Assembly: GCF_014839805.1 (NCBI RefSeq)
Contig: NC_051120.1
Coordinates: 1,488,001 to 1,552,000 of the forward strand
Direction of reading: 5' to 3'
Length of the DNA: 64,000 bases
DNA from: Manduca sexta
Lineage: Eukaryota > Arthropoda > Insecta > Lepidoptera > Sphingidae
In this document: positions 9,336-53,320 of the stretch, one piece after another
How positions within the stretch are numbered: position 1 is the first letter of the stretch
Layout of the letters: the number at the start of each line of letters is the position of its first letter
Translations under genes and position numbers: made by a program
Notes under the pieces: model-generated
Databases searched by the model: none
Told to the model about the DNA's origin: nothing
What the model saw: only the letters and a program-made list of their open reading frames with translations

Positions 9336-9835
9336 NNNNNNNNNNNNNNNNNNNNNNNNNNNNNNNNNNNNNNNNNNNNNNNNNNNNNNNNNNNNNNNNN
9401 NNNNNNNNNNNNNNNNNNNNNNNNNNNNNNNNNNNNNNNNNNNNNNNNNNNNNNNNNNNNNNNNNNNNNNNNNNNNNNNNNNNNNNNNNNNNNNNNNNNN
9501 NNNNNNNNNNNNNNNNNNNNNNNNNNNNNNNNNNNNNNNNNNNNNNNNNNNNNNNNNNNNNNNNNNNNNNNNNNNNNNNNNNNNNNNNNNNNNNNNNNNN
9601 NNNNNNNNNNNNNNNNNNNNNNNNNNNNNNNNNNNNNNNNNNNNNNNNNNNNNNNNNNNNNNNNNNNNNNNNNNNNNNNNNNNNNNNNNNNNNNNNNNNN
9701 NNNNNNNNNNNNNNNNNNNNNNNNNNNNNNNNNNNNNNNNNNNNNNNNNNNNNNNNNNNNNNNNNNNNNNNNNNNNNNNNNNNNNNNNNNNNNNNNNNNN
9801 NNNNNNNNNNNNNNNNNNNNNNNNNNNNNNNNNNN
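9336..9835. other. assembly gap of exactly 500 N
   Basis: A run of N. The round length suggests a default-size scaffold gap, so the true distance is unknown. Open frames crossing it are artefacts. Confidence 0.98.
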
Positions 9836-11344: not shown

Positions 11345-12775
11345 ATGGCGCAGTGGTTGGTTATAGCTTTTGCCTTATTCGCAGGTAATATTATTACAAG
11401 TTTTTTAATCTGAATATTGTGAATATGTGTTTAGAACAAGTGGAGTTAACTCTAGTAATACAGTCAATCTATTGTAAGGTCACATTCCATAAGTGATTCC
11501 AATTATTATCTCAGAATTAATCAGTACGTTTTCGTTTCAGGTACCGCCTCCGCGGCGTCGACTGCTTCCCGCATAGTCGGCGGGCAGCTGACGACCATCG
11601 ACCGATACCCATCTCTTGTGCAAGTGGAATTTCTGGGCATCTTCACCAACACATGGGGCCAATCCTGTGCCGCCAACATCCTTAACAATTTTTACGTGCT
11701 GTCTGCAGCTCACTGCTTCGCTGGCTTGTAAGTGGCGTTGACATTCAATAATGCTGAGAGGAATGACAAACTCTTATTTCCGCAAATTTTCACAAATCAT
11801 CAACTCATATTTTTTAATACTATTCTTAGTAAGTCTAAAGTCTTAGTAGTAATTCTAAAGTATTAATTTTTACAACCAATTTTTATTATAAGGTTTATAC
11901 AGAACTCGTGTGAAACCCTAAAAATATGAGACAATACTGTGTGATTTCAAGCTATTATTCTTCTGAGGAAGACATCCAGCTCAAGATGATTCAGGTTAAG
12001 AACTACAACAACTATTTAATTCTTTTCCCTCAGATTTTACGACCGCTCCCGTAGACGTATACGAGGTGGCTCGACCTTCCGCAACACTGGCGGCGAAGTG
12101 ATCGGTATCGTGCGAGAGTTCAATCACCCCGACTACAACATCATCCCTGGCGATGCTGACATCAACGTCGTCCGCTTGAGATCGCCCATCATCTACAACC
12201 CAGTGATGCAGCGAGCGACGATTGTGCCTCAGGGCTTTGAGATTCCTGACAATATGCCCGTTGTTCATGCTGGTTGGGGCGCTATTGAGGTATGTATTTC
12301 TTAACAACATAATAGTAATGGTAGTGATAAAAACTGTTTATGCGCGTTACGATTCATAAGCGTTCTCGTTTGCCTAGATAGGCATATAGATATAAGAACG
12401 AGTAATAAAGAATGATTAGTGGGAATGGATTTAAAAAGTTATTTGCAAATCACTATTTTTTTCCACCAGTGGCTAGGTCCTCAATCATCTCAGCTGCAAG
12501 ACGTGACCATCTACACCGTGAACCGCCAGATCTGCGCCGAGAGGTATCTAACCCTCAATCCTCCTCGCCAAGTCACGGGGAACATGATCTGCGCTGGTAT
12601 CCTGGACGTGGGAGGCAAGGACGCTTGTCAGGGTGACTCTGGCGGACCAATGTACCTCGGCGATATCATAGTTGGTGTTGTCTCGTGGGGACATGAGTGT
12701 GCCAACGACACCTACCCAGGAGTCAGCGCTGCTGTTGGACCCTACTCTGACTGGATCGTCGCTACTGCTGTTTAA
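11345..12775 (+). CDS. Trypsin-like serine protease, catalytically complete (262 aa)
   Basis: Four exons: 11345-11384, 11541-11727, 12034-12289 and 12470-12775, all with GT-AG introns in phases 1, 2 and 0. The protein starts with a hydrophobic signal peptide (residues 1 to about 16) and a short propeptide. The trypsin activation site is R24|IVGG. The catalytic triad is complete: His71 in SAAHC, Asp118 in DADINVV, Ser218 in GDSGGP. Asp212, six residues before the serine, sits at position 189 and predicts cleavage after Arg/Lys. All six cysteines of the three-disulfide insect trypsin pattern are present. Length and motifs fit lepidopteran midgut alkaline trypsins, so the likely role is digestion in the gut lumen. 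Gut expression is inferred from family, not seen. The exon 4 acceptor at 12469/12470 is preferred because it aligns residue for residue with the next gene. Confidence 0.93.
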
Positions 12776-14319: not shown

Positions 14320-14768
14320 AGACCAGACTCGTATCAGCGTAGAGATATGACCATACATCATGAACAGAGTCAGAGAGTTATGTGCTGCTAGCTAAATACC
14401 TCACCTTGAACACTTCAGACCTCGTCACGGAGAACATACACACAACATCTGTGCTGGTATCCTGGATGGGAGGCAAGGACATGCCAGGTCGACTCTGGAG
14501 GATCCTTGTACTTCAACATCATAATTGGCATAGTGTCCTGGAACCGTGGTTGCGCGAACGAGACCTTCTCTGGCATTAGTGCTGCCGTCTCATCATCATC
14601 AGCCACATAACGGTTTACGGCGGAATAAAGGCCTCCCTCAAAGATTTCCAGACGGACCTGTCGAAAGCGGCCTGCATCCAACGTGTTCCAGCGATCTTTA
14701 TCAAATACTCTGTCCACCAATGTGTTGCCGTCTCACAAACTAATTGGATCGTCCCTATGCCTGTTTAA
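14320..14768 (+). pseudogene. Trypsin pseudogene: exon 4 only, split by a LINE tail
   Basis: The sequence parallels exon 4 of the flanking trypsins, for example 'CTCGTCACGGAGAACAT', 'TGTGCTGGTATCCTGGA', 'GGGAGGCAAGGACATG' and 'TAATTGGATCGTCCC', and ends with TAA plus a nearby AATAAA (14772-14777). Small indels break the frame repeatedly, including through the codons for GDSGGP. There are no exons 1-3 upstream. A ~133-bp foreign insert (14593-14725) interrupts it. It is closest to the 11345 gene in its 3' end and poly(A) region. It makes no functional protease. Confidence 0.88.
14593..14725 (-). mobile_element. 5'-truncated LINE tail inserted in the trypsin pseudogene
   Basis: The insert is bounded by the 10-bp direct repeat TGCCGTCTCA at 14583-14592 and 14726-14735. 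On the minus strand it ends GGCTGATGATGA, a trinucleotide tail typical of lepidopteran non-LTR elements. The insert at 62995-63144 has a similar tail. Confidence 0.75.
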
Positions 14769-15675: not shown

Positions 15676-18600
15676 ATGGTGAAACTACTGGTGCTAGTTG
15701 TCGCCTTGGCCGCAGGTAAAATTAGATTGTACAAAAATTTATAAAAAATTCAAAACTTTAAACTACACATGTTAAGTTCATTTTTCTTTATCTAAATAAA
15801 TTGTAAACCCATTTAATTTGAATCATTAAGTATTGGTAAGGATATTAAAGCATAAACGCGATTTGAACATGTGTAACTATTTTTGTGGTTGCCTCTTAAA
15901 CTAAAGATTTTCCAGAAAGAGAAGATAAATCTGTTGTGGTTAGCAGTATCTGGTGTACCCTAGAGGAAATCCGGAGTTGAAACGTAATAAGCATAAGATT
16001 TGATACCAATGTTGGTTGATATCATGCTAGAAGCCGATAGTGAAAACGGATCTATTCTGCAACACAAAAAAAAACATGTTTCATAGATTCCACATTTAAA
16101 ATAGGAACAGATGAAAGAAAAAGCAATTCCGGTGATGTATAGGCATTTTAACGTGCCGCGCTCTGCCAACATTACATCAAGAAACCCAAAGGATGCATTG
16201 GTTTATGTTCCAGCAATTGCATAAAAACATAATTGCTACAATCGTTTTTCTCTTCACCTTCTTCGATAAGACCATGAGAAAATAGAACCGTTAACTTCAT
16301 CCAAAAAGCTATCACGACTTTCAATATGATCATCATAGTTCTACCCACTGCTAAACACACCCCCGAAAGTGATTCTACTAAACTTTAATTATTTTCATTG
16401 TAGGATCCGCCTTTTCGGCGTCGGCTCCAGGGCGCATAGTCGGTGGTGAGTTGACCACCATCGACAAGTACCCTTCCATAGTCCAGGTGGATTACTTTGG
16501 GCCAAACTCTGGTACTTGGTCGCAATCCTGTGGTGCCAACATCCTCAATGCTTACTACGTGCTATCTGCTGCCCACTGCTTTGCTGGAAGGTATGTTTTG
16601 ATTCCGGGTCGGGCAAAGTGATATTGGGTTTTTTTAGTATCAGCCTGGAGTCATTTGCACCCGATATGGCGAGAGGCTCGTCGCCTATTACAGCATAGGA
16701 AGTATACACAGGCGATGTGAGTGCTCTGACTGTACATCTGAGTACCACTACGAAATAAAGCCGTGATGTGTCATTGTTTTTCATGTTTTTGACAACAAGC
16801 TTTATTAAACAGTTTCGGGGGTGGTGTTGCGGAACAATTATCATGCTAAGATCTTGAAGTCTAGTTAAAGGGTTTATGACCGTGAATACTGTTATGCTCA
16901 TGTGCCACTTAAAAAAATAACATCGTTTTCGACAATTTCAGGGGAAATAATTCGTTGATATGCGAACGAGGTATAATTCTATATTGTTGATATACAATTC
17001 ATGTACACTTTTCTATACCATTTCGTCAGCGTGGTATACAAAAGTAATTTCCAAGCGTAATAAGTATACCATTTGGTATCTTATTTTTAGTAATAAGTAT
17101 TATAAATGCATAGGTCTTTGAAATGTGTCGATGTTTGAATGTTTGGATGTTTGTTCGAAATAAACGTAGATACATCTGGACGGATTTGAATAAAATTTTG
17201 TACTCCGATAAACCGTGTCTTGGATTAACATTTAGGCTACTTTATATACCAACTATTGATTTTTTTATCCATTATTTTATAAAGATGGCGCTGGCATCTT
17301 ACAAATAGCGCCGAAAAACATTACTCTTAATTAAATGCACATAGGCACATTTACGTCAGCGGGCGAAGCAGCTTGTTATAGATAATATATGATTACATAC
17401 GTAATACTATGTTACAGTTATCATTCATTATAAATATATAACTGATAATGTAAATACCCAATTCCAGCATAATAATAATTATAGATAAGATAGAAATACT
17501 ATCAATCTATTCAAGTTTTTTAATTCTGCTTTCCTTTTGATCTAATCAGATTGCACAGACTTGAAACAGGCGGTAAAACCATTCGTCAATAAAGGCGTCT
17601 AATGCTATGGCAATGAGGGAAAGCAAGTTTATGGCCCTTTCAAAATCTTACTCCCAACATGTTGATTTTCTGTGACAATAGCTGGTGGTAGGATATTTGT
17701 ATACGTCCAGATAGTGATCACCGTATACAGGGCATTAAACCTGATGCAGTATCAGTAGAGACCAGCCTCACTAAATCCGGTTTCAAAGAGGCCGGCAAAA
17801 TTATGTCAATTAGCGAGAAATAATCATCTCTAAACAGTCGACACTCTATCTGAACCCCACTCTGCTACCATCAGACGCCAGGGTCACTTTACATGCCTGT
17901 AGAAAAACAATCACCACAAACAAATCCTTATTTTCCAGGACCTACGACCCCAGCCTTAGACGCATCAGAGCCGGCACGTCCTACCGTAACACTGGAGGAA
18001 TCATCTCCTACGTCTTGAGGGAGCACAACCACCCTACTTACGGCAAGAGAGGGTTCGACGGAGATATCACCGTAGTACGCCTGATCAATGCTCTGGTCTA
18101 TAGCCCAGTAGTCCAGCGAGGCACTATCATCTACCAGGATGGAGTTATCCCGGATTATATGCCTGTGGTTCATGCTGGATGGGGCCGGACTACGGTTAGT
18201 ATTTGTGTTGATATGTTTGAGTGACAATAGAGTGTTTCCTACTAATTTATAATTTTTGTATTTTAATTTTGAAACTCTTTGCGGTCTCATTTAATTATGT
18301 TTTTATGAGGACTGACTGAAGACATAAAACACGTTTTTTAAAATCTTGATTTAGAGCAGTTTCCATTTCAGAGGACGTAGCCAAAATGTCTTTCTACGAT
18401 CGTTAACGCTTATAGAAAACAAACAGATTATGGGAATGATAAGTTATGTCATTGCTAGATATAATGTTAGCAATAACGATTCTAGGAAGGCATCGTGACT
18501 ATGACCCCAGCTCTGTGCAATATGAGGGCAGCGTCCATCACTTCAATACGAATGGACAAAAAACCCTAAACCACAATGTTTTTTGTTCAAGCTGACATGA

Positions 18601-18976
18601 AACTAATGATATCATTTAATACTTTTCAAAATACAAAAATACTAATAATCATTCTACTTTTCTTCATCAGCAAGGAGGCCTCTTATCACCCCAGCTCAGA
18701 GACGTCGTGATCTACGTGATCAACCGGGAACTTTGCGCTGAGAGGTACCTCACTCTCAACCCTCCAGGCATTGTCACGGAGAACATGATTTGCGCTGGTC
18801 TCCTCGACATCGGAGGTCGCGACGCCTGTCAGGGCGACTCCGGCGGACCCCTGTACTACGGAAACATCATCGTCGGCATCGTTTCCTGGGGTCATGGATG
18901 TGCTAACGAGACCTTCCCTGGACTCAGTACCGCAGTCGCCCCTTACAGTGACTGGATTGTTGCTACCGCCGTTTAG
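15676..18976 (+). CDS. Trypsin-like serine protease, catalytically complete (262 aa)
   Basis: Exons 15676-15715, 16404-16590, 17939-18194 and 18671-18976. Exon lengths (40, 187, 256, 306 nt) and phases are identical to the gene at 11345, so the two are tandem duplicates. The protein has a signal peptide [13 protein letters not shown], activation site R24|IVGG, His71, Asp118 in FDGDITVV, Ser218 in GDSGGP, and Asp212 at position 189, so Arg/Lys specificity is predicted. All six cysteines are kept. Intron 2 (1348 bp) has collected a SINE-2 fragment, a Helitron-like repeat and an R3 copy, while the coding frame is intact. The likely role is a secreted digestive trypsin. I found no clear AATAAA close to the stop. 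Confidence 0.93.
16600..16830 (+). mobile_element. SINE family 2 fragment in intron 2
   Basis: Carries 'GGGTCGGGCAAAGTGATAT', 'AGTATCAGCCTGGAGTC' and 'CCCGATATGGCGAGAGGCTC', as in the intact copy at 31930-32186. The tRNA head is mostly missing and the 3' part is scrambled. Confidence 0.7.
17095..17390 (+). repeat. Helitron-like repeat in intron 2
   Basis: Begins with 'AAGTATTATAAATGCATAGG', contains 'TGAATGTTTGGATGTTTG' and 'AAGATGGCGCTGGCATC', and ends near 'GCGGGCGAAGCAGC'. The same blocks occur in order at 62870-63260. Confidence 0.5.
17690..17912 (-). repeat. R3 repeat copy in intron 2
   Basis: Decayed minus-strand copy of the R3 family ('GGTAGGATATTTGTATACG', 'CAGTCGACACTCTATCTG'). It lies just upstream of exon 3. 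Confidence 0.6.
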
Positions 18977-21905: not shown

Positions 21906-22612
21906 CGCCCGAAATTAATAACCAATCCTAATCCAATGTATGCCATCTAAGATTGATAATTCATTCGTTTTTATGGATAAAGCATGCCAATAACCAATCC
22001 ATAGATTGAGTAAGCTATCTCTAACAATAATCAATCTTTGAGAGGACGGATTACAGATCATAGATTACCCTCTGTTTCAAAATGACAGTTTACGCTTGCC
22101 AATACTCTATCTACCCGTTTTGACATTTGATTTGATTGTTGTAAACAATCGCATTTTCCAATCAGACCAATTCCTCAGTTTACTCCATATGTTTTGAATA
22201 TCGCTTACACTGATTTTAAGGGAAACGAAAAGGCAATGGAAATATCCATATTCTCTAATGACAGTGACGACAGTGATTTGGAGGGACTAGCGATACTGAT
22301 AGCGAAACTGAAAGTCGCGGTTCATCACGGGTAATGAAAAGAGTTAACTACATGCAGACCCTGGATGAGTTTGATTTAACGTTTGGATTAGGCTTTCGAA
22401 ATCTGCTTGCCAATCAGTGTTAGTTAAACTGATCTCGTATATTCGTGTTACTTCTATGTACAAGGTAAATAATTTTTGACATTATTTACAAAAAATACCG
22501 TACCTACCGAACTATTAGATAGGTACAAAACAAGGGGCAATTGTATCGTTTTTCAGGAACTATGGTGTTTCTCCATTCCATCAACTTTTGCTGAGGAATA
22601 GGAAATATTTAT

Positions 22613-22870
22613 ATGATCTTTTACAGGACATTTGGTAGATGGAAACGTCGCTTCCCTGTGATTGCATTGACATTGCGTTTATCTTTACCTAAAGTTCAAA
22701 CAATAATAATTGTAACTGCAGTTTTGCACAATATTTGTCGGAATCACAGGCTAGAGGAAATTCCAACTGAAGTGGAATTATCAACTGCTGATATTATTAA
22801 TTATGAGAACAATATAGAGAATCAAGATGTTGGAGAAAGAACAGCATTAACAAATAACTTCTTTACTTAG
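22613..22870 (+). pseudogene. Harbinger transposase C-terminal relic
   Basis: An 85-codon open stretch contains FGRWKRRFPV, LSLPKVQ and VTAVLHNICR. These match the conserved C-terminal region of HARBI1-type nucleases, where the pattern is FG-WKRRFP followed by A-A-LHN-CR. The upstream part (about 22330-22440) has a TLDEFDLTFGLGFR stretch like the family's N-terminal region, but stops and a deletion separate the two. It is not a functional transposase. Confidence 0.8.
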
Positions 22871-26368: not shown

Positions 26369-29300
26369 ATGGTGCGAGCAAGCTGGATTGTGTTGCTGGT
26401 GGCAGGTAAGGTATTTCATTATCATTGGCGTGTAACTGATATATCTTGATTAGCCTGACCAGTTAAATAAAAAACTGCACCGCGTTGTATTAATCAAACA
26501 AATTTCTAATACTGGCAACTGTAAGTTTAAAACGAAAAAGCAAATAGGCGTCTTTAAAGCAATGCTTTATTTTCCTAGTCAGTCATTCCATGTTTTAGAA
26601 TGGTGCAGCAATGCGGTATCACGCAGGAACGGTTCTGAGCAGCTATTTTATTGCAACAAGATACCCTGGGGCCGTCCCGTTTGCGCTGAAAAAGAGCACC
26701 GCGGGTTTTATTTGTTATGCCGGTGTATGGTATACAGGGGTTAGGGACTCGGTTCAATGCTCGCTCGGATGATGCAATACTCCCGAGTGTCGACATTGGG
26801 CCGAAAGACCGGTGAAATCAACATAATCGTTCCACTCACCCTCCAAGCGGTGGTAGCGATAGCGCGTTATTTTTCCGCGAAAAAATGCTGTACATTTAAT
26901 CTGCTTTTAAGTCGTGAACACTTTCTCCCGTAATAAAAGTTTGCTGTATAAAAATACCTGTGGTGCCCTGATATTAATCTTGAAACTATAAAATCTGTGT
27001 GCGGAACATCCAAATCTATTCAGCTGATTTTGCATTTACTACTACGGAATATCGAAACATCACAATCTTTTGCATTTGTAAAATTAATAAGAATTGATAG
27101 GCTAAGGTCCTCACAGCACTCTCTGAAAAATCGTTATAGAGCCTTGTTTTTACCAAATAGGAAGCAATTTTTATCAAATTATCAATCACCGTATATACAA
27201 TACAATTTACATTGGTTCTAATAAAAGTATCCAGAATTCAGCACAAAATCCTACCCTTAATATGAGGAATGCGCACTATTTCTAAAACAGTAAGGATATT
27301 CGTGGGAGACTGTGATCAAACGTCTTGATAGTTGATTTTCTGTTTTTCGCCCTCCAAAAACTTCAAGTCCAACGAGTACTGACCAAAAATAACTTATTTT
27401 CCAGCTATCAGCTCTCCAGCGCTGAGCTCACAGGACCTAGGCACTCCAGTAACAATACAGGAGCACCCTTCCGTCGTCCAGGTCGAAGTAGGAGTTCTGG
27501 GCACCTGGGTCCAGCAGTGCGCTGGCGCAGTCATCACTAACTACCACATATTGTCCAACGCCTACTGCTTCTCTGGAAGGTTAGTATCATGTAACATAAG
27601 TGGACAGTCATCATGACAAAGTTCTAGATTTTTAGTCTACATTGGCACTTTAACTTTTTGATGTAACGTGTAGCGCCGGATTTATACTTTGCATTAGTAA
27701 AGGTTGGTTTGTGTCGTCTCGTATGTCCCGCTTCCTGGAGCCTATTTTGCAGGACCAAGAAAATATTTTATACCGCGCTCTAGGTCACCACCTAGTCTAC
27801 AATCTAGAGGTCTAGGCCGCGGCCAAACGACTTTATAAAAATCCAATACTGGTAACCTTTACTAATTCATTAATTGTAGCCAGTATTGATGCAAGGAAAA
27901 TAATTGACAAATCTTTGGAAATCAACAGTTTTACATAGGAATTTCGAAAAGTAGGTTTGTAAAGTCGATCAATAACCTCCTACGTTTATAATAAATGAGA
28001 TGTTCCTCATTAAACTTTCTGATAGGAAAATTCTGAAAATGAACAGAGCTCAGTTCTTTACTACTTCTATTTACGTGTCATACGTGTTTATATAACTTTA
28101 ATTTTATGTTAAACATAATTCAATCTTATTTATAAACTTGTTTGAGCGTTAAGAGATGGTTAAGAATTGTTTAAATATCTGACAAAATCATTACCGGGTC
28201 CTAGTTTAAACCTAATTAAGAGTCAAGATAGCGGGTTTTGACTTACAGCTGATCGAGTAAATTTGTGTTTTAACTAAGCATAGCTTTACGAAATTTTTAT
28301 AAGTAAGGCTTATTATGTATTACTTTTAATATATACTCCTAATTTATCTATGGCTTATAGATGGGAGATAGCAAATTCAATAATATACTTATAATAAAAA
28401 AATATAATTCCAGTTACTACGACCGCACGAACCGGCGTATCAGAGCTGGGGCGACTAACCGATACGAAAATGGACAAGTAGTTTATGTACTAATAGAGTA
28501 CAACTACCCGGATTTCGGCATCCTGGGCAAAGATGGGGATCTGAGCGTGGTCCGCTTGCAGTCCAATTTGAAACTGGGCAGCGACATTCAGCAAACCCTT
28601 ATCTTGGGCCAGGGAATATACTTGCCTTCCTACCTGACAGTGACAGCACTCGGATGGGGCAGTACTATTGTAAGTTGTTATTTTAATAGCAGTAAAGGCA
28701 TAGAGACTAATGTCCGCAGGTTGAACAACCAAGTTATTTTAAGAGCAGTAAGAAATAGAGAGGAATATGTATAGGTTCAATACCCAAGAGCACGCACCTC
28801 TGACTTTCCTAGAGTCATGTGTATTCTTTGTTATTTATCGCTTGCTTTAATGGTGAAGGAAAACATCGTTAGGAAACCAGCAAACGTGAAAAGTTCTCTA
28901 TAGGCATTTTGAGGGTGTGTGAAGTCCGCCAATTCGTACCAGACCAGCATGGTTAACTATATAATACACCCCTGAGTAATTTTGGTGCGTTCCGTCTTCA
29001 CGTCGAATGCACTGGGAACATTTATATTTTTTGTGTATACCTCATATACACATCGAGGCCTATGATGGCTTGCCAACATTTCCTGGTTTGCCCCCTCCGC
29101 CCATCCAAAGAGTGTACCTTTTCCTCCCCCCACACTTCGCTTTCACAGATATCTTCCTCCTAATTTTCCTGCAGGCCACTGTAGTCGCTAAGCTGGGGGA
29201 TTCCAGTATCCTATTCGCATGTATCCTCCGTTGTTGACTGCAGGGTGTGGTGCATAGGTTTGAATTCGGTGTACAGACCAAGCGCACAAGCATTTGCTTC

Positions 29301-29840
29301 GGGGGGATATACCTACGCATTTAGGAGGCTGTCATGCCAAAAGCACTGGGAAATAGACTTTTTATCACAGCATTGATTTTTAAATAATTTAGTAATAATT
29401 GGGATCACGGGTGTTAACGATTGACGAGTCTAAGCGAATTGTAACATATCTATACAATTATCAACAAGGTTCTTTATTGTTAGTGGAATAGAAAAAACAT
29501 CATTCATATCCTCAATTACATTTTCCAGCAAGGCGGCGAGTCATCCAACAACCAGCTTCACAGGCTAGACCTCGTCACCCACAACTACGAGAAATGCATG
29601 GAACACTTCCAAGTCCTAGAGGAGCCTGAGATCATCACGGAGAACATGATCTGCGTGGGCCGACAGTACGACACCGGTAGAGACTTCGATGGCAGGGATA
29701 TTGGTGCTCCCCTGTTCTACGAAAATACCCTGGTCGGACTTCTCTCCTTCGGCAAATCTCAAGCGAATGACAAGCACCCCGCTGTCGCCACTAACATTGG
29801 ATCATATTCCAACTGGATTGTGTCGGTTGCTATTGATTAA
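26369..29840 (+). CDS. Serine protease homologue, catalytically dead (259 aa)
   Basis: Exons 26369-26405, 27405-27579, 28414-28669 and 29529-29840, with the cluster's intron phases. The signal peptide is MVRASWIVLLVA. The RIVGG activation site is absent: the region reads LGTPVTIQEHPSVVQV. His57 is replaced by Tyr66 (LSNAYCF), Asp102 is kept (Asp113 in KDGDLSVV), and Ser195 is replaced by Ile214 (GRDIGAP). Both cysteines of the 191-220 disulfide are lost together, while the 42-58 and 168-182 pairs remain. The frame is intact and splice sites are good, so this looks like a maintained pseudoprotease rather than a pseudogene. Its function is unknown; binding or inhibitor-titration roles are possible. 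Intron 3 holds a SINE-1 copy; intron 1 holds an unidentified GC-richer block (26575-26830). Confidence 0.9.
28690..28975 (+). mobile_element. SINE family 1 copy in intron 3
   Basis: 'ACTAATGTCCGCAGGTTGAA', 'GTGAAGGAAAACATCGTTAG' and 'CCAGACCAGCATGGTTAAC' match SINE-1. It carries a short internal duplication around the B box and lacks part of the 3' tail. Confidence 0.8.
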
Positions 29841-41275: not shown

Positions 41276-43405
41276 ATGGCGCTTCATTTGCTCGTGGCTT
41301 TGGTTCTCCTTGCAGGTAATATTATACCCTTTCCAATTTTTTACAATATTGCGTTTAAAAACATAAACAATGATTCAGTTTCATAAAAACATTAATGAAT
41401 ATCAGTACAAGAAGCTAATGATTTACAAATCCAATATATTTTGTCTATTATTTATTCACACACCCGGATTTTGATACTGATATCCCCGTATACTTTAAAC
41501 AAAGACGTTTTAGATGATACTCAATGTTTTTGTTTTTCAGGGACTGCCCACAATTCCTTTTCCCCCGAGAAGTCCCTACTGGACATCAATTGGGATAATA
41601 TTGTTGCCGCCATACCTGGCCTTGTCGCCAGCATCCAAGAAATCGTTGCAGGAATTGAATGGGCCAATGTTCTAGAAACGATACAGAACGTCATCAACAA
41701 TCTTCCTGCAATTATTGGAAATCTTCCTGCTATCATCGAAAATCTTCCCGGCGACCTCCCTGAAATCATTGGGAGCCTGCCCGACCTCATCGGTAGCTTG
41801 CCCGACGTCATTGGGAACCTCCCCGAGATCATTGAAAACATTAACTGGGACGCTATTCTTGACCACTTGCCTGACATCGACTGGCCTTCTGTAATCGAAA
41901 ACTTGCCCGACATCGTTGCCAATCTTCCCGAAATTATCGCCAATCTACCCGACATTATTGGCAATCTCCCTGGGATCATTGAAAACCTTCCTGATATCGA
42001 CTGGCCCGCAATCATCGATCTCCTCCCTGAGATCGAGCGCGACCCTGGTGTAATTAGCCACATCAGCCAACACCCCAGTCTTGTGCAGATTGAGGTTGGT
42101 TACAGCAGCATCTGGCTTATGGGCTGTACTGGTAGCATCTTGAACACTGGTTACGTCCTAACTGCTGCTCGCTGCGTCTCTGGCCGGTAAGTCGTATTGC
42201 AATAATATTAATGATGACTAAAGATTTTAAAAGTAATAATTTAAAATAGAATTTCTAACATAATTATTATAGTCTCACTACTCTATTAAATATTGCAAGC
42301 ATAAATGTCAATAGTTAAATCTCGAACAATAATTGAAACAAGGTTTGTTTGTGATCTTGTGTTTGTTCAGCTTTCGTTGTCACCTGGATTCATACTTAAA
42401 TTTTCTTTTCTAGCCTGTACGACCCCCGCATCCGCCGTATCAGGGCTGGCGCTAACAGCCGTGGTGGTGACGGTGTGGTCTACCCCGTCAGCTACGCAAT
42501 CCCTCACCCTAGCTTTGGTGACAACGGTTTCGACGGTGATATTGCTGTCGTCAGAGTTTTGGGTGTCATTCACTACGGCCCTAACATTCAACGTGTTGGA
42601 ATCACTAGCCAGGGTGTATTCTTCCCTGCTGGCGTCCGCGTAGTCAACGCAGGATGGGGTTCCACTGCTGTAAGTAGAGTTTTTTTATAACATAGCCCCT
42701 TGGGATTCTCAATGGTATCTTAGAGACTAATCATCTGAATTTCTAAAAATCCTTATTTTGTGCTCATCTACATACAAAAGACCTCATGTGTAGAATTTAA
42801 CACTTTCGGATACACTGATTTGAACTATGTGGTCTAAAAACAGTGTTAAGAATTATAATAAATTTAATGTTACATGGAATTTCATTTACGGGAAGGCCAT
42901 TCTCAAAGTAAAAGTGCAACGGCATATTTTTACAGTATAAAAAGTAGCCTACATGTTAATCCTAAATATTGGTTGTTTATGTGCCAAATTTCATTTTCAC
43001 TTATCTAGATTACATATCAACTCTTTTAAACATTGAACTTATAACCATAGTATCAAATATGCTTTATAACAACTAACTGTTTATTTCGATCAACAGCAAG
43101 GCAAAACCATCTCCAACCGCGATCTGCACCGCTCCGATTTATACGTGGTCGACCACTGGCAGTGTGCAAACAAATTCTCTCAGTTCGTCGTTCCGATTAC
43201 CGTCTCCCACAACATGATTTGCGCCGGCCGCGCGCGCTCTGGAGGCCGTATGGCCGACCTGAGGGACGCTGGAGGTCCTCTCTACTACGACGGCACCTTG
43301 GTCGGAGTACTGAGCTTCGGTCGCTACTTCCTCCGTGACGAATACCCCGTCGTCGCCACCTCTGTCAGCTCTTACACCACCTGGATCGTGAACACTGCCG
43401 TCTAA
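41276..43405 (+). CDS. Heptad-repeat serine protease homologue, catalytically dead (416 aa)
   Basis: Exons 41276-41315, 41541-42186, 42414-42669 and 43097-43405, with the cluster's phases. Residues 1 to about 16 form a signal peptide (MALHLLVALVLLAG). Residues about 28-180 replace the short trypsin propeptide with heptads of the type x-N/S-L-P-x-I-I, about ten regular units (Leu-Pro at 68, 75, 82, 93, 100, 107, 135, 142, 149, 156, 163). They are interrupted by I-N/D-W-D/P motifs near 29, 114, 126 and 166. The segment has ~26 acidic residues, no Lys/Arg and no Cys. A protease-like domain follows, without RIVGG: His57 is Arg224 (LTAARC), Asp102 is kept (Asp271), Ser195 is Ala372 (RDAGGP), position 189 is Met366, and the 191-220 disulfide is lost. 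It is secreted and non-proteolytic; function unknown. Confidence 0.92.
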
Positions 43406-43750: not shown

Positions 43751-44360
43751 ATGGCGCTTCATCTGCTCGTGGCTTTGATCGTCATTTCAGGTAAAATTTT
43801 AAAGACTTCAGCTCGCCTCGATTACTGGAAACGGCTTAAGATATTTTAAAGATCAACAAAAGACGTAGACATAAAAACATCTTTGAAAACCTTTACGAGA
43901 ACAGATAATAATTTACGAAACCAATATAAATAGTTATATCGACAGTTATTTATTGATTGAAACTGGATTTAGATTCTGATTCAAGCATACCTGAATCGAA
44001 AGAGGGACCTTTAACAATACACATGATTTAATGTTTTTGAAGCATGGCCCACCATTCCTTTTCTCCCTAGAACTCCCTACTTGATATTAACTGGGATGAT
44101 AGTCTTACAATGAATTTTCTTATACTAGGTAATAAACCTTTACAGGTGTATACAGCATTAGTAACATAACTGTCATTAAAGCCGAAATCAACGAAATTAT
44201 TCCAGGAATTAACTGGGTGAATGTTCTAGAAACAATACGGAGCATCATCAGCAGTATTCCTGATGTTATTGGAAGCCTTCCTACTATCACACTCATTAAA
44301 TTCTGAAATCTTTAGAAGCCTGCCTGACCTCTTCAGCAGCCTGCTGCCTGCTCGACATAT
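43751..44360 (+). pseudogene. Decayed copy of the heptad-repeat protease homologue
   Basis: Exon 1 (43751-43790) is intact and reads MALHLLVALIVIS, nearly identical to the two paralogues, with a good donor site. The exon 2 relic starts after AG at 44042 and has a TAG at 44068-44070 where the paralogues have Glu-Lys. After a rearranged stretch it resumes with 'GGAATTAACTGGGTGAATG' and a few heptad codons (SIPDVI, GSLPTI in translation), then dissolves near 44360. No exon 3 or 4 follows; an R3 repeat begins at the break. The promoter is replaced by a SINE. Confidence 0.88.
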
Positions 44361-48185: not shown

Positions 48186-48569
48186 AAGTAGTAATTCACT
48201 ATAAACCGGGATGGAAATGTTCGATAGTTTACCCTATACGTACCTAGTACAAAGTAAATTAGTCATCTACAAATTCATGATTTATTGTCTTATTGTATTC
48301 ATTAAATAAGGCTCTTCACTATGACATTTGATCTTTTGAAAATTTCGCGTCTTTTCTAAGAATTTTAGCGCCTAAATAGTGCTAACTATATATTAAACAA
48401 TTATATTACGTAAATACGACGAAGTAATGTTGGTTTCATTGATGCGGAACCATTCATTCATTGATTCAACATTACGCGCTTAGCCGCCAAAAGTACGACG
48501 CCTAAAATGATATCTAATATTATCTTCTTTATATTTTAGGTTTTATAGTATATAGTATCTACAGTGAAA
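48186..48569. other. AT-rich spacer
   Basis: Nothing recognised. Confidence 0.4.
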
Positions 48570-48571
48570 TA

Positions 48572-49877
48572 CTTAGTCTGGCCATAAATACTGTTACACT
48601 TAATTATAAAAAAATATTACATTTGAATTTCGAATCTGTCATTTTTATACGATTGTTCATTGTGTTTTCTCATTTTGGCGCCAATACATTGTAAAATATT
48701 TTGCGATATTAAAATGGTGTGGGGTGATAAAGAGAACCGAATCGCTGTGATAGCATTACACAAAGTAGGTATGGAGCCAAATGCAATTTTTAAAACTCTC
48801 CATACACTTGGTATTAGTAAAATGTTTGTGTACCGGGCTATTAATAGGTACAATGAGACCTCCTCTGTTTGTGACAGAAAAAGATCTGGCCGTCCACGTA
48901 GTGTTCGTACGAAAAAGGTGGTCAAAGCAGTAAGGGAAAGAATTCGAAGAAATCCTGTCCGAAAGCAAAAGATTTTATCTCGGGAAATGAAGATAGCACC
49001 TAGAACCATGTCGCGTATTTTAAAAGATGACTTAGGACTTGCAGCCTATAAGAGACGCACTGGCCATTTCTTAACTGATAATTTAAAGAAGAATAGGGTG
49101 GTAAAATCGAAACAACTACTGAAGCGGTACGCAAAGGGAGGTCACAGAAAAATTTTGTTTACGGATGAGAAAATTTTTACAATTGAGCAACATTTTAACA
49201 AACAAAATGACCGTATTTATGCTCAAAGCTCTAAGGAAGCTTCCCAATTAGTCGACAGAGTGCAACGTGGACATTATCCGACTTCAGTGATGGTTTGGTG
49301 GGGTGTTAGCTATGAAGGAGTGACTGAGCCATATTTTTGTGAAAAAGGTATCAAAACATCGGCACAAGTGTATCAAGATACCATTCTTGAGAAGGTAGTT
49401 AAGCCCCTTAACATCACCATGTTCAATAACCAAGTATGGTCCTTCCAGCAAGACTCGGCGCCGGGTCATAAAGCTCGGTCCACGCAGTCTTGGTTGGAAT
49501 CGAACGTTTCGGACTTCATCAGAGCTGAAGACTGGCCGTCGTCTAGTCCCGATCTTAATCCGCTGGATTATGATTTGTGGTCAGTTTTAGAGAGTACAGC
49601 TTGCTCTAAACGCCATGATAATTTGGAGTCCCTAAAACAATCTATACGATTGGCAGTGAAGAATTTTCCCATGGAAAGAGTGCGTGCTTCTATTGATAAC
49701 TGGCCTCATCGTTTAAAGGACTGTATTGCAGCCAATGGAGACCACTTCGAATAAGCTTTTATATTTTTAATTGTTTTATATTTATGTATTAAACTGACAC
49801 ACTGTAAAAGTAATAAATGTTATTTGCAGTTAACAATTTTCTTTTTTCTTTATTACAATATTTATGGCAAGACTAGG
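48572..49877 (+). mobile_element. maT-type mariner transposon, intact (1306 bp)
   Basis: Terminal inverted repeats CTTAGTCTGGCCATAAATAC (left) and CCTAGTCTTGCCATAAATAT (right end, reverse complement) are imperfect. TA lies at both sides (48570-48571 and 49878-49879). It contains one full-length transposase gene. A near-identical 5' end of another copy is at 1-381 in opposite orientation. Confidence 0.93.
48714..49754 (+). CDS. mariner/maT transposase, DD37D (346 aa), apparently intact
   Basis: Cut-and-paste transposase of the IS630-Tc1-mariner superfamily. Residues 1-50 and about 65-115 form two helix-turn-helix DNA-binding units, separated by the GRPR motif (59-62). The catalytic triad is Asp151 (FTDEK), Asp247 (QQDSAPGH) and Asp285 (NPLDYDLW). 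The 37 residues between the second and third Asp define the maT clade, described from moths. ATG at 48714 is chosen because the frame upstream of it has no ATG and the protein then begins MVWGDKENR, as expected. There are no stops or frameshifts, so the protein could be active, although the inverted repeats have diverged. Confidence 0.92.
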   Translation: MVWGDKENRIAVIALHKVGMEPNAIFKTLHTLGISKMFVYRAINRYNETSSVCDRKRSGRPRSVRTKKVVKAVRERIRRNPVRKQKILSREMKIAPRTMSRILKDDLGLAAYKRRTGHFLTDNLKKNRVVKSKQLLKRYAKGGHRKILFTDEKIFTIEQHFNKQNDRIYAQSSKEASQLVDRVQRGHYPTSVMVWWGVSYEGVTEPYFCEKGIKTSAQVYQDTILEKVVKPLNITMFNNQVWSFQQDSAPGHKARSTQSWLESNVSDFIRAEDWPSSSPDLNPLDYDLWSVLESTACSKRHDNLESLKQSIRLAVKNFPMERVRASIDNWPHRLKDCIAANGDHFE

Positions 49878-49879
49878 TA

Positions 49880-50733
49880 TATAGAGTTATATATAGTATA
49901 TAGTATTTCACAAAAAAATTGTCAGTCATGTTTCTACATGTTAAAATATTTGATGAATAATTTATTATTGTAAATAAAAGCAAATATAATTAAAAATTAA
50001 GTCAAATCGCACGTATCAATCAATCATTCAAAAAAATTATGAGTGATATTTGATTCATGTGGCATATTTCAAAATACGACGTAGATACGATTAACTGAAA
50101 CTCGTAAAATCTCGTAAAATAAAAACAATCAGATATACAGATAGACAAACTTACAAAATAAATCGCTAAGAGGGTAAACATATACTGATAAAATTTACAG
50201 AAAATTCTATTGACAAATAAAAAAGTAACTAATTATTTCTTTCTATGCACTCTAGTAAATCAGGTACTTCTCAGATAATTCTTTTTACTTTGGACCCACT
50301 GAGGTTCAAATATCAGGAGAAATTTAACACAGAAAAAAGGTTGCAGAGCATGCAAAAACGAATTTTACATCGAAAATTATTGGTAGCTTTACCTACTAAT
50401 TAAAGAAAAAATCTTAAAACGAAAGGTACATACATCGAAAATGATTAGTAGCTTTACTTACTAATTAACAATTATTATCTTATTAAATTTTATTTCTTAT
50501 TACCACTCGAGTTATTACCATTCCATATCCCGTTTTATCACTACTGAATCAATTGAAACCCCAATACGAGTAAGAAATTAACCTCAGCTTGGTTCTATTA
50601 CAGAATTTATACTAAGAAAATCTTAAGATGGATTTCGAACAATAAAACAGAACTCCAAACATAGATAAGTCGAAATTATCTAATAATGGTATCACAGGAA
50701 CTACGATATTTTTAATTGGCATTAACTAGATAG
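49880..50733. other. AT-rich spacer
   Basis: Nothing recognised. A short tandem similarity (ATCGAAAAT-ATTAGTAGCTTTACTTACTAATTA) occurs at 50370-50470. Confidence 0.4.
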
Positions 50734-50833: not shown

Positions 50834-53320
50834 ATGGCGCTTCATCTGCTCGTGGCTCTGGTTCTCCTTGCAGGTAATATTCAAAATACTTTTCGTGTTT
50901 TTAAATATATTTTGTTTCAAGAAACCATTTGCTGGTGTATAGGTGGTGTGAGAAAAACATCAATGGAAATCAGTATAAAAACAAATACCTAATAATTTAG
51001 AAATCCTATATATTTTGTAAATTATTCAATCGCATATCGATTTTGATGTCACCGTATGCTTAATCCAAAAAAAAGATATTTTAGATGATTTTCAGTGTTT
51101 TTATTTTTCAGGGACCGCCCACAATTCCTTTTCCCCCGAAAAGTCCCTGATAGACATCAATTGGGATGATATTCTTGCTGCCATACCTGGCCTTGTTGCC
51201 AGCATCCAAGAAATCATTGCAGGAATCGAATTGGCCAATATTCTAGAAGCGATACAGAACATTATAAGCAATATTCCTGGAATTATCGGAAACCTTCCTG
51301 GTATCATCGAAAATCTTCCCGGCAACCTCCCTGAAATTATTGGGAACCTGCCTGACATCATCGGTAGCTTGCCCGACGTCATTGGAAACCTTCCCGAAAT
51401 CATTGAAAACATTAACTGGGATGCTATCCTAGACCACTTGCCCAACATCGACTGGCCTTCTGTAGTCGAAAACTTACCTGACATCATTGCCAACCTTCCC
51501 GAAATTATTGGCAATCTCCCCGACATCATTGAAAACCTTCCTGATATCGACTGGCCCGCAATCATCGACCTCCTCCCCGATATCGACCGTGACCCTGGTG
51601 TAATTAGCCACATCAGACAACACCCCAGTCTTGTCCAGATTGAAGTTGGTTACAGCAGCATCTGGCTTATGGGCTGCACTGGTAGCATCTTGAACACTGG
51701 TTACGTCCTAACTGCTGCTCGCTGCGTCTCTGGCCGGTAAGCATTATAGCAATAGTAATCATGTCTAACATATTATACTCTAAAAAAAGTATTTTGAAAA
51801 CGAATAAAAACTTATTTCTAATATGTAAAGTAGTGTTACGCTTTCATTTGAAAGTTAGATTACAAGCATCTGTGTAGTTAAATCAATCGTAATTATTGAA
51901 GCTCCAGCTTTTATTTACAATGTAGTTTTTGTCATGTATTAGCATTAATTGTCTCATCGTTTAATACTTAAACGTTCTTTTCTAGCTTGTACGACCCCCG
52001 TATACGCCGTGTCAGGGCTGGCGCCAACAGCCGCGGTGGTGACGGAGCTGTCTTTCCCGTTAACTTTGCCATTGCCCACCCTAGCTTCGGTGGCAATGGT
52101 TTCGACGGTGACATTGCTCTTGTCAGAATCTTCGGCGTCTTCCAATACGGTCCGAACATCCAACGCGTTGGTATTACCAGCCAGGGTGTCTTCTTCCCTG
52201 CTGGTGTCCGCGTGCTCAACGCAGGATGGGGATCCACTGCTGTAAGTAGATTTTTTACAAAACCGCTTGTGATTCTCATGCAAAGATCTTAAACTACATT
52301 ATAGTTATTTATAGATTGAACATCAGGGCCAAATTTTTGCTCCAAAAGTTATTACCAATTGGTAATAAATCGTTGTCTTATTTGAAAGGTCCGTACGACA
52401 AGATGTCAAAGCGTCTTTAAATATCAATACAAAAATAATATATTTACAGAAAATGTTAATATTCCAAAGACATTAAACAGTATACTTAGTTAATATTCGC
52501 ATTAAAAACATGCAAATCATGACATGGAAAAAATAAAAAATATTTTACATTGGTATTTTGCTATTTCACGGTAGATTGAACAATCATCATGTAAGTGCAT
52601 ATTTTTGTATGACAGTCTTCCCAATGTTCGCTCTATATAATTTTAGAACTGTTTCTCATGATTATTCCAGTTATTGTGTATTTATTTACGTTTCTCCGTA
52701 AATTATTTTATACTTTTAGAGTAGTACTAGTTTGAACTCTGCATGTATTACTAGTCATTGTTAAAATTATAATAAAATAGTTGTTAGCTACGGGTTCGTC
52801 CGCAGAAGGGGTCTTACTCAGAATAATGCACCACCGTGTACTTTTTCTAGAATAAAAAATACCTTACATGTCAATCCAGAAAATGGAGTATCTGTGTAGC
52901 TAATTTTATGTTTACTCATAGATAATATAGTTTAGATTTAAGCTCTATTAAAAATAGCGCTATAGAATCAAATGTATTTTATAAAACTTATCCGTATATT
53001 TCCACCAACAGCAAGGCAAGACCATCTCCAACCGCGAACTGCACAACGCCGACCTTCACGTGGTGGATAACCACCAGTGCAGAAACAAGTACGCTGATTT
53101 CCCCATTCCGATTACCGTCACCCACAACATGATTTGCGCCGGCCGCGCGCGCTCTGGAGGCCGTATGGCTGACCTGAGGGACGCTGGAGGTCCTCTCTAC
53201 TACGACGGCACATTGGTCGGAGTGCTGAGCTTCGGTCGCTACTTCCTCCGTGACGAATACCCCGTCGTCGCCACCTCTGTCAGTTCCTACACGAACTGGA
53301 TTGTCAGCAATGCCGTCTAA
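50834..53320 (+). CDS. Heptad-repeat serine protease homologue, catalytically dead (409 aa)
   Basis: Exons 50834-50873, 51112-51736, 51986-52241 and 53012-53320, with the same phases as the paralogue at 41276. Exon 2 is 21 nt shorter, exactly one heptad. The layout is the same: signal peptide MALHLLVALVLLAG, Lys24, then ~148 residues of acidic x-N-L-P-x-I-I heptads without Lys, Arg or Cys up to the Arg in DIDRDPG. A protease-like domain follows, with His57 as Arg217, Asp102 kept (Asp264 in FDGDIALV), Ser195 as Ala365 (RDAGGP), and Cys191/Cys220 both lost. The frame is open throughout and splice sites are good, so it is maintained. It is secreted and non-proteolytic. A role as a binding or structural protein in gut, peritrophic matrix or silk-type secretion is possible but unproven. 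Confidence 0.92.

Follow-up and report, generated by a model that had tools for sequence, protein, structure and literature searches.

An acidic heptad-repeat arm in front of catalytically dead trypsin relatives in a protease gene cluster of Manduca sexta

What is a long repetitive stretch doing between the signal peptide and a trypsin-like domain whose catalytic residues are gone? The question is raised by two genes on the forward strand of the window, the 64,000-nucleotide stretch of Manduca sexta DNA analysed here: gene 1 (41276-43405) and gene 2 (50834-53320), each with four exons and with GT-AG borders at every intron. In gene 1, exon 1 (41276..41315; 40 nt, with a GT donor and phase 1 at its end) encodes the signal peptide (MALHLLVALVLLAG), which was called by eye, as was that of gene 2 (exon 1, 50834..50873). 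Exon 2 of gene 1 (41541..42186; 646 nt, with an AG acceptor and a GT donor) is rich in repeats over residues 15-182 and then starts the S1 domain, which exons 3 (42414..42669) and 4 (43097..43405, including the stop codon) complete. The repeat domain proper, hereafter the arm, consists of acidic LPxII heptads at 41567..42046 (residues 23-182) and is followed by the first protease part at 42047..42186. Gene 2 is built in the same way, with exon 2 at 51112..51736 (625 nt), an arm at 51138-51596 (residues 23-175) that has one heptad fewer than that of gene 1, exon 3 at 51986..52241, and exon 4 at 53012..53320. About 150 residues of heptads had been noticed earlier in exon 2 of both genes; between the signal peptide and the protease domain we measure about 155-160.

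Database proteins support these gene models. The product of gene 1 (416 aa) corresponds over its whole length to P0001 (O3G_MSEX004323, a hypothetical protein of M. sexta), matching at 415 of 416 residues, and that of gene 2 (409 aa) corresponds, also over its whole length, to P0002 (O3G_MSEX004319, M. sexta), with 4 of 409 residues different. An independent annotation thus yields the same spliced proteins as the joining of exons 1 through 4, and the exon 1-2-3 junctions proposed in the earlier note agree with it at the level of protein annotation. A literature search by the two locus names returned no paper with either name and yielded no expression, localisation, or protein data.

The protease part, or head, belongs to the S1A fold. 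PF00089 scores above its cut-off of 20.6 bits in exon 3 (30.7 bits) and exon 4 (46.9 bits) of gene 1, the exon 2 piece alone reaching 18.8 bits, below that cut-off. Residue losses were read from alignments to the mite Der p 3, to the live paralogues A and B of the same window, and to other trypsins. Both genes carry H57R, S195A, G193R, D189M, and G226V and have lost Cys191 and Cys220, with Asp102 and Asp194 retained. In gene 1, H57R lies in the exon 2 part (TAARC), the retained Asp102 in exon 3 (GDIAVV), and D189M, C191D, G193R, and S195A in exon 4; the losses in exon 4 of gene 2 are the same. An S1 homologue counts as inactive when at least one of His57, Asp102, and Ser195 is lost, and here two are replaced; the loss of catalytic residues described in the earlier note is upheld by the alignments both to Der p 3 and to the live paralogues. 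The activation site has been lost as well. The IVGG start is absent, RIVGG having become ERDPG in gene 1 and DRDPG in gene 2 (Ile16-Val17 being replaced by Arg-Asp in the alignment), and neither gene has the Arg15-Ile16-Val17-Gly18-Gly19 sequence of an activatable S1 zymogen. The arm had at first been called a pro-domain. In the activation sense, this term is not supported, with Ile16-Val17 gone and the catalytic serine absent.

Both live and dead relatives accompany the two genes. Paralogues A (11345..12775) and B (15676..18976), on the plus strand, are trypsins with RIVGG, a full triad, and a short activation peptide; as had been described for the live paralogues, the stretch corresponding to the arm is short, 11 residues in each. 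Gene C (26369..29840, plus strand; exons at about 26369-26405, 27405-27579, 28414-28669, and 29529-29840) is a dead paralogue without heptads: it carries H57Y, S195I, and G193R, has lost Cys191, Cys220, and Ile16, and has a short activation region. The first exons of A, B, and C, at 11345, 15676, and 26369, are predictions. All three share intron phases 1, 2, and 0 with genes 1 and 2, in line with the earlier claim that the intron phases were kept. A broken third copy lies on the plus strand at 43751..44350 (end approximate), with an exon 1 at 43751 and an exon 2 remnant at about 44040-44350 that holds the start of the array. Its heptad remnants give tblastn matches at 44047-44100 and 44157-44288, and tblastn found no protease exon for it at 43751..44350.

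Several other elements share the window. Between paralogues A and B, a further trypsin gene fragment (CQVDSGGSLYFNIIIGIVSWNRGCANETF) with a broken frame, probably a pseudogene, occupies 14400-14740. Between genes 1 and 2 lies a transposon (48569-49880), which we take to be mariner-like, with a 345-codon open frame (48717-49751) and 26-nt inverted repeats that are 88% complementary; PF13551 matches this frame above its cut-off and PF13358 below, and part of the transposase protein sequence recurs at 21-326 on the minus strand. The Rfam family mir-2834 matches the minus strand at 49505-49567 (91.5 bits; cut-off, 87), and since this match falls inside the transposase frame, the microRNA family may be a transposon fragment. 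A DDE_Tnp_4 transposase remnant, presumably Harbinger-type, is found at 22595-22867, slightly below the curated cut-off, and a run of 500 N at 9336-9835 is probably an assembly gap. Scans for bacterial-type promoters and for tRNAs gave nothing informative.

The repeat is real at the DNA and protein levels, far beyond chance. Gene 1 has 10 strict heptads of the form [NSDLI][LI]P.[IVL][IVL], and gene 2 has 9. For the looser motif hPxhh the counts rise to 13 and 12, whereas 5000 residue shuffles per gene average 1.5 and 1.4 and never exceed 6. At a lag of 7, autocorrelation reaches z = 6.9 (gene 1) and 6.6 (gene 2) for aliphatic residues and 7.6 and 7.2 for proline, the self-identity of the arm is 37% in both genes, and Tandem Repeats Finder likewise picks up 21-bp periods in the DNA of each. 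The array noticed earlier therefore stands, without the regularity then ascribed to it: units with tryptophan (INWDAIL, IDWPSVI, and IDWPAII) interrupt it, and proline is sparse in its first ~40 residues.

The same spacing points to helices. The mean hydrophobic moment peaks at 102 degrees in gene 1 and 100 degrees in gene 2, the angle of an α-helix, and is about half as large at 160 degrees. A single-sequence search of the PDB gave nothing below E = 0.37, and a three-sequence profile gave 44 weak matches at E up to 1, of which the 15 at E up to 0.003 comprise 12 designed proteins, 2 chemotaxis proteins, and FtbJ. Three of the designed proteins are named sc-apCC; we take these entries to be coiled-coil designs. 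We read the profile matches as reflecting a common aliphatic heptad pattern, not kinship; together with the moment, the prevalence of designed proteins among the best 15 lends indirect support to a helix. A canonical coiled coil has uninterrupted a/d heptads in a helix bundle; the arm shows a/d-like spacing, along with these weak designed-protein matches, but has proline in most heptads, and proline at every seventh residue is unusual in coiled coils.

The composition of the arm is equally biased. Cys, Phe, Tyr, and Met are absent from both arms, and Lys and Arg from residues 25-179 of gene 1 (155 residues) and 25-172 of gene 2 (148 residues), the flanking basic residues being K24 and R180 in gene 1 and R173, at the far end, in gene 2. 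The net charge of the arm is -26 in gene 1 and -25 in gene 2, its computed pI is 4.05 compared with 9.3-9.5 for the protease head, and it contains 17 (gene 1) or 16 (gene 2) Leu/Ile/Trp-Pro bonds. At the Lys/Arg rate of the head (8.5%), 155 residues free of both would arise with a chance of ~1e-6, a figure that treats as independent repeat units that are not. Two comparisons bear on this bias: the arm of a related protein, P0006, described below, contains Lys/Arg at 6.7% of 164 residues, and eight of the phage-type proteins that match by pattern have Lys/Arg-free runs of more than 100 residues, the longest of 301. Resistance to trypsin may therefore be a by-product of the repeat that was not itself selected. 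Protection of the arm from trypsin is a plausible consequence of its composition, not an established cause.

Does the arm belong to a known domain family? No family in Pfam, PHROGs, or NCBIfam matches the repeat domain above its cut-off, and the earlier statement that it corresponds to no described domain holds for the libraries searched, in which every match is sub-threshold. Among these matches, Baculo_PEP_C (PF04513) scores 28.1 and 29.8 bits, short of its cut-off of 38, the other Pfam matches in the arm also staying sub-threshold, and the database entries of P0001 and P0002 carry this baculovirus label. We reject a baculovirus origin. In three shuffles that preserve nothing but the arrangement of aliphatic, proline, and other positions, Baculo_PEP_C was matched every time (E = 3e-7, 1e-4, and 5.5e-3), one shuffle, at 31 bits, beating the real sequences, so that PF04513 is a pattern match; the one plain residue shuffle, searched against Pfam only, did not match it. 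Two scans of viral contigs, with gene 1 exon 2 and with P0006, yielded no confirmed relative, within the reach of a method that detects close relatives only.

The likeness to phage proteins goes somewhat further. The tape measure family phrog_5493 is matched by the real domains at E = 4e-6 and 1.8e-6 and by all three pattern-preserving shuffles, more weakly than by the real domain (E = 7e-4, 4e-5, and 2e-4). We accordingly read the match as a likeness of pattern rather than as a sign of phage origin, though, since the real domain outscores all three shuffles, this control lowers the tape-measure likeness and does not remove it. Among 50,697 phage records searched by tblastn, 38 had a match at E up to 0.01, and the best 15 of the 38 are all annotated as tape measure proteins, with 28-33% identity. 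Phage tail tape measure proteins thus share hydrophobic repeats of LPxII-type spacing with genes 1 and 2 but are a different kind of protein. The 17 matches in a prokaryote genome collection were likewise put down to pattern, none being a relative. At E up to 0.1, NCBIfam gave nothing for P0001 or P0002; P0006 drew two matches, both far below cut-off. The Pfam matches include no clip profile either, and no Cys precedes residue 209 (gene 1) or 202 (gene 2); the six conserved N-terminal cysteines of clip-domain serine protease homologues (SPHs) are thus lacking in both genes. Among the literature matches listed, titles and abstract openings contained no description of the repeat.

Relatives were sought with the whole protein and with each of its parts, by searches that need shared 5-residue words and may miss orthologues. 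The whole protein retrieved 13 proteins at E up to 1e-3 (8000 scored candidates) and the protease part 6 at E up to 1e-20 (987 candidates). The arm alone retrieved 17 at E up to 1 (5800 candidates): besides the two Manduca proteins, these are 15 of 621-703 aa, a single one of which carries a name, tail tape measure protein. Among the proteins inspected by sequence, listed domains, or length, only P0006 combines an arm with a dead S1 domain beyond the Manduca pair. This sequence of 338 aa comes from a 1943-base contig and lacks its C-terminal part, the position of Ser195 lying outside it. Its arm of ~160 acidic, amphipathic hPxhh residues stands directly before a dead S1 domain (H57R, no IVGG); it has 17 hydrophobic-Pro steps, a net charge of -23 to -25 depending on where its ends are set, and periods of 7 and 11, and no Arg is found at the former activation site. 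Over exons 2-3, the S1 part of P0006 shares 50% of its residues with gene 1, 49% with gene 2, and 51-52% with proteins of Anticarsia gemmatalis; at ~50% identity, P0006 is not a close sister of the Manduca proteins.

P0006 is like genes 1 and 2 in its acidic amphipathic hPxhh arm, in the place of that arm, and in its dead S1 head, and unlike them in its mixed periods of 7 and 11, in the 11 Lys/Arg of its arm, and in having few Asn or Gly at unit ends. Aligned locally with the arm of gene 1, its arm scores 160, against a mean of 47 and a maximum of 95 in 1000 residue shuffles. With shuffling in blocks of 7, 11, and 18 residues, however, a score of 160 came up in 0, 6, and 46 of 300 tries; when the P0006 arm is rotated, the mean is 152 and the maximum 170; and 18 phage-type proteins score 106-168 against gene 1. 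Because rotated arms score about equally, colinear homology of the P0006 and Manduca arms could not be upheld from sequence alone; the case for P0006 rests on position and on the common dead head. A similar arm in P0006 suggests that the arm is probably not limited to the gene 1/gene 2 pair. The earlier description of it as lineage-restricted is weakened accordingly, by a protein that bears a comparable arm at about 50% identity in the protease part. P0003 and P0029 of Anticarsia carry H57R, S195A, and G193R, have lost Cys191, Cys220, and Ile16, and have no repeat; an Anticarsia relative bears the database name "trypsin, alkaline C-like." The pyralid P0004 and P0005 carry S195A and G193D with His57 and the activation site intact, P0004 having D189G in addition.

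How old is the arm, and did it come before or after the loss of catalysis? Mean DNA identity among units is 66% within gene 1 and 71% within gene 2, compared with 90% between the two genes over the array. Since units are less alike within a gene than the array is between genes, the array predates the gene 1-gene 2 duplication; judged by these identities, most repeat units existed before it. The earlier label "newly evolved" is weakened as well. The genes differ in unit number by an in-frame 7 residues. Compared between the two genes with our own Nei-Gojobori script, dN/dS is 0.20 in the array and 0.20 in the whole protease part, where it varies by exon from 0.09 to 0.43. The end of exon 2 (42047-42186 versus 51597-51736) has a dS of 0.10 versus 0.78 for exon 3. 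Identity along the two genes runs from 0.54 to 0.98, with high values towards the end of exon 2 and within exon 4, a pattern suggestive of patches homogenised by gene conversion. In exon 4, the part at 43192-43341 reaches up to 98%.

In a tree of 13 rows, the six dead sequences, P0006 among them, cluster at 97/98; when the tree is restricted to exons 2-3, they do not group. With the dead group absent from the exons 2-3 tree, it is likely, but not proven, that catalysis was lost before the arm was gained. A placement of P0006 beside genes 1 and 2 is not decided by the tree (p-AU, 0.32). A stepwise loss of catalysis may be traceable within the family, in gene C and in the Pyralidae proteins P0004 and P0005.

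We propose that genes 1 and 2 encode dead trypsin relatives whose repeat arm, predicted to be helical, would self-associate or anchor the protein rather than control activation, a tentative reading to which we give a probability of about 0.4. With catalysis and the Ile16 switch both impossible, we take the arm to be a lasting structural element of the protein. Each NLPxIIG unit would amount to roughly one proline-capped helical turn, and the whole domain to a rod or a curved stack, lined without a break by Leu/Ile on one side and acidic on another, an array that Asn and Gly at unit ends could render irregular. The aliphatic face may pack against copies of itself or against another hydrophobic surface, and the basic dead head may bind a partner or a neighbouring molecule's acidic arm. 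Lacking Lys and Arg and containing Leu-Pro bonds, the arm would be shielded from both trypsin and chymotrypsin. In gene 1, tryptic cleavage at the flanking K24 and R180 could still free the arm whole.

The protein would act extracellularly, probably in the larval gut, as expected of trypsin paralogues. The midgut lumen is the likely site because the paralogues are of the digestive type, going by the names of their relatives, and because S1 proteins of Manduca are prominent there: the available text of PMC8022704 gives 240 PF00089 proteins for the Manduca genome, 76 of them highly expressed mainly in the midgut, and describes large protease arrays. A bolder version, which we consider unlikely, would see in the arm an undescribed moth repeat domain, grown within a single exon of a trypsin gene that had lost its catalysis, that serves as a protease-proof helical scaffold of proline-capped heptads, forming fibres or barrels in the gut lumen, displaying dead heads, and convergent with the phage tape measure.

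The strongest rival is that the arm binds lipids or membranes in the manner of the amphipathic helices of exchangeable apolipoproteins, with its aliphatic face on the lipid, and tethers the dead protease to membranes, lipid particles, or the peritrophic matrix. All three arms have their amphipathic moment at 100-102 degrees, which would suit this role, as would the periods of 7 and 11 with proline punctuation in P0006 and the Lys/Arg of the P0006 arm. Class A lipid-binding helices carry Lys/Arg at the interface, and the arms of genes 1 and 2 have neither residue; moreover, at E up to 1 no apolipoprotein or ApoLp-III profile matches P0006 or the second exon of either gene. We hold lipid binding to be a less probable role for the arm than self-association or anchoring, though one to be taken seriously.

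It is distinctly unlikely, though conceivable, that the arm is a true zymogen pro-domain or an intramolecular inhibitor, cut by trypsin at R180 so that its release activates binding by the head. R180 of gene 1 does lie 1 residue from the former activation Arg in the alignment, K24 and R180 flank an arm otherwise free of Lys/Arg, and an acidic arm and a basic head could dock. However, with Ile16-Val17 replaced, the normal N-terminal insertion cannot follow a cut, the catalytic serine is absent, and P0006 has no Arg at the site; lacking an activation site, the proteins are unlikely to serve as zymogens.

Still less probable is a decoy, in which the dead head would absorb plant or parasite protease inhibitors aimed at gut trypsins and the arm would merely stabilise or anchor it. 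The available text of PMC13398162 does raise the idea that dead relatives of gut proteases serve as inhibitors or decoys, and that of PMC9693090 reports Helicoverpa genes with an incomplete triad that respond to soybean inhibitors, but the very S1 pocket and oxyanion loop that canonical inhibitors grip are altered in genes 1 and 2 (D189M, G193R, G226V, and loss of C191/C220). Least probable of all is low-complexity drift, by which slippage would have lengthened the activation peptide of a catalysis-free gene into an array without a function of its own, for, although the in-frame 7-residue unit difference, the broken third copy, and the dead paralogues without an arm would fit, the dN/dS of the array equals that of the protease part, the array is older than the gene 1-gene 2 duplication, and a distant relative has a similar arm.

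The arm sets genes 1 and 2 apart from the insect S1 homologues compared here. S1A SPHs without a regulatory domain resemble them in the PF00089 fold, in secretion, in the lost triad, and in their place beside active trypsins; gene C, P0003, and P0029 are plain examples, with a short stretch before the protease where genes 1 and 2 have a repeat of ~160 residues. Such plain SPHs prevail in two surveyed insects: in the accessible parts of the surveys, 98 of 101 Plutella SPHs consist of the protease domain alone and 3 have a clip domain (PMC4676143), and 102 of 125 Tenebrio SPHs lack a regulatory domain, 21 of the other 23 having clip domains (PMC11172050). S1 proteins with clip, LDLa, CUB, CCP, or GD domains likewise carry something in addition to the protease fold, and in some of them the triad is dead, but according to the text available from PMC10036332 these are recognised domains, the clip with six cysteines, whereas the arm has no Cys and no profile above cut-off. 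The domains named alongside insect S1 in the accessible text of PMC10036332, PMC11172050, and PMC4676143 are clip, LDLa, Fz, CCP, CUB, TSP, SR, and GD, and that text mentions no arm-like domain.

Pseudo-proteases are common in insects, and the extra domains named in the survey text at hand are recognised modules such as the clip domain. What differs here is a long repeat of predicted helical type that replaces a short activation peptide within an unchanged exon frame. Automated annotation obscures this: database records label the proteins with the baculovirus family PF04513, a pattern match according to the shuffle control. A single cluster contains live trypsins, one dead homologue that lacks the repeat, two that have it, and the broken third copy. 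With live, dead, repeat-bearing, and broken copies side by side, the order of events, in which loss of catalysis would have preceded gain of the domain, becomes testable across moths.
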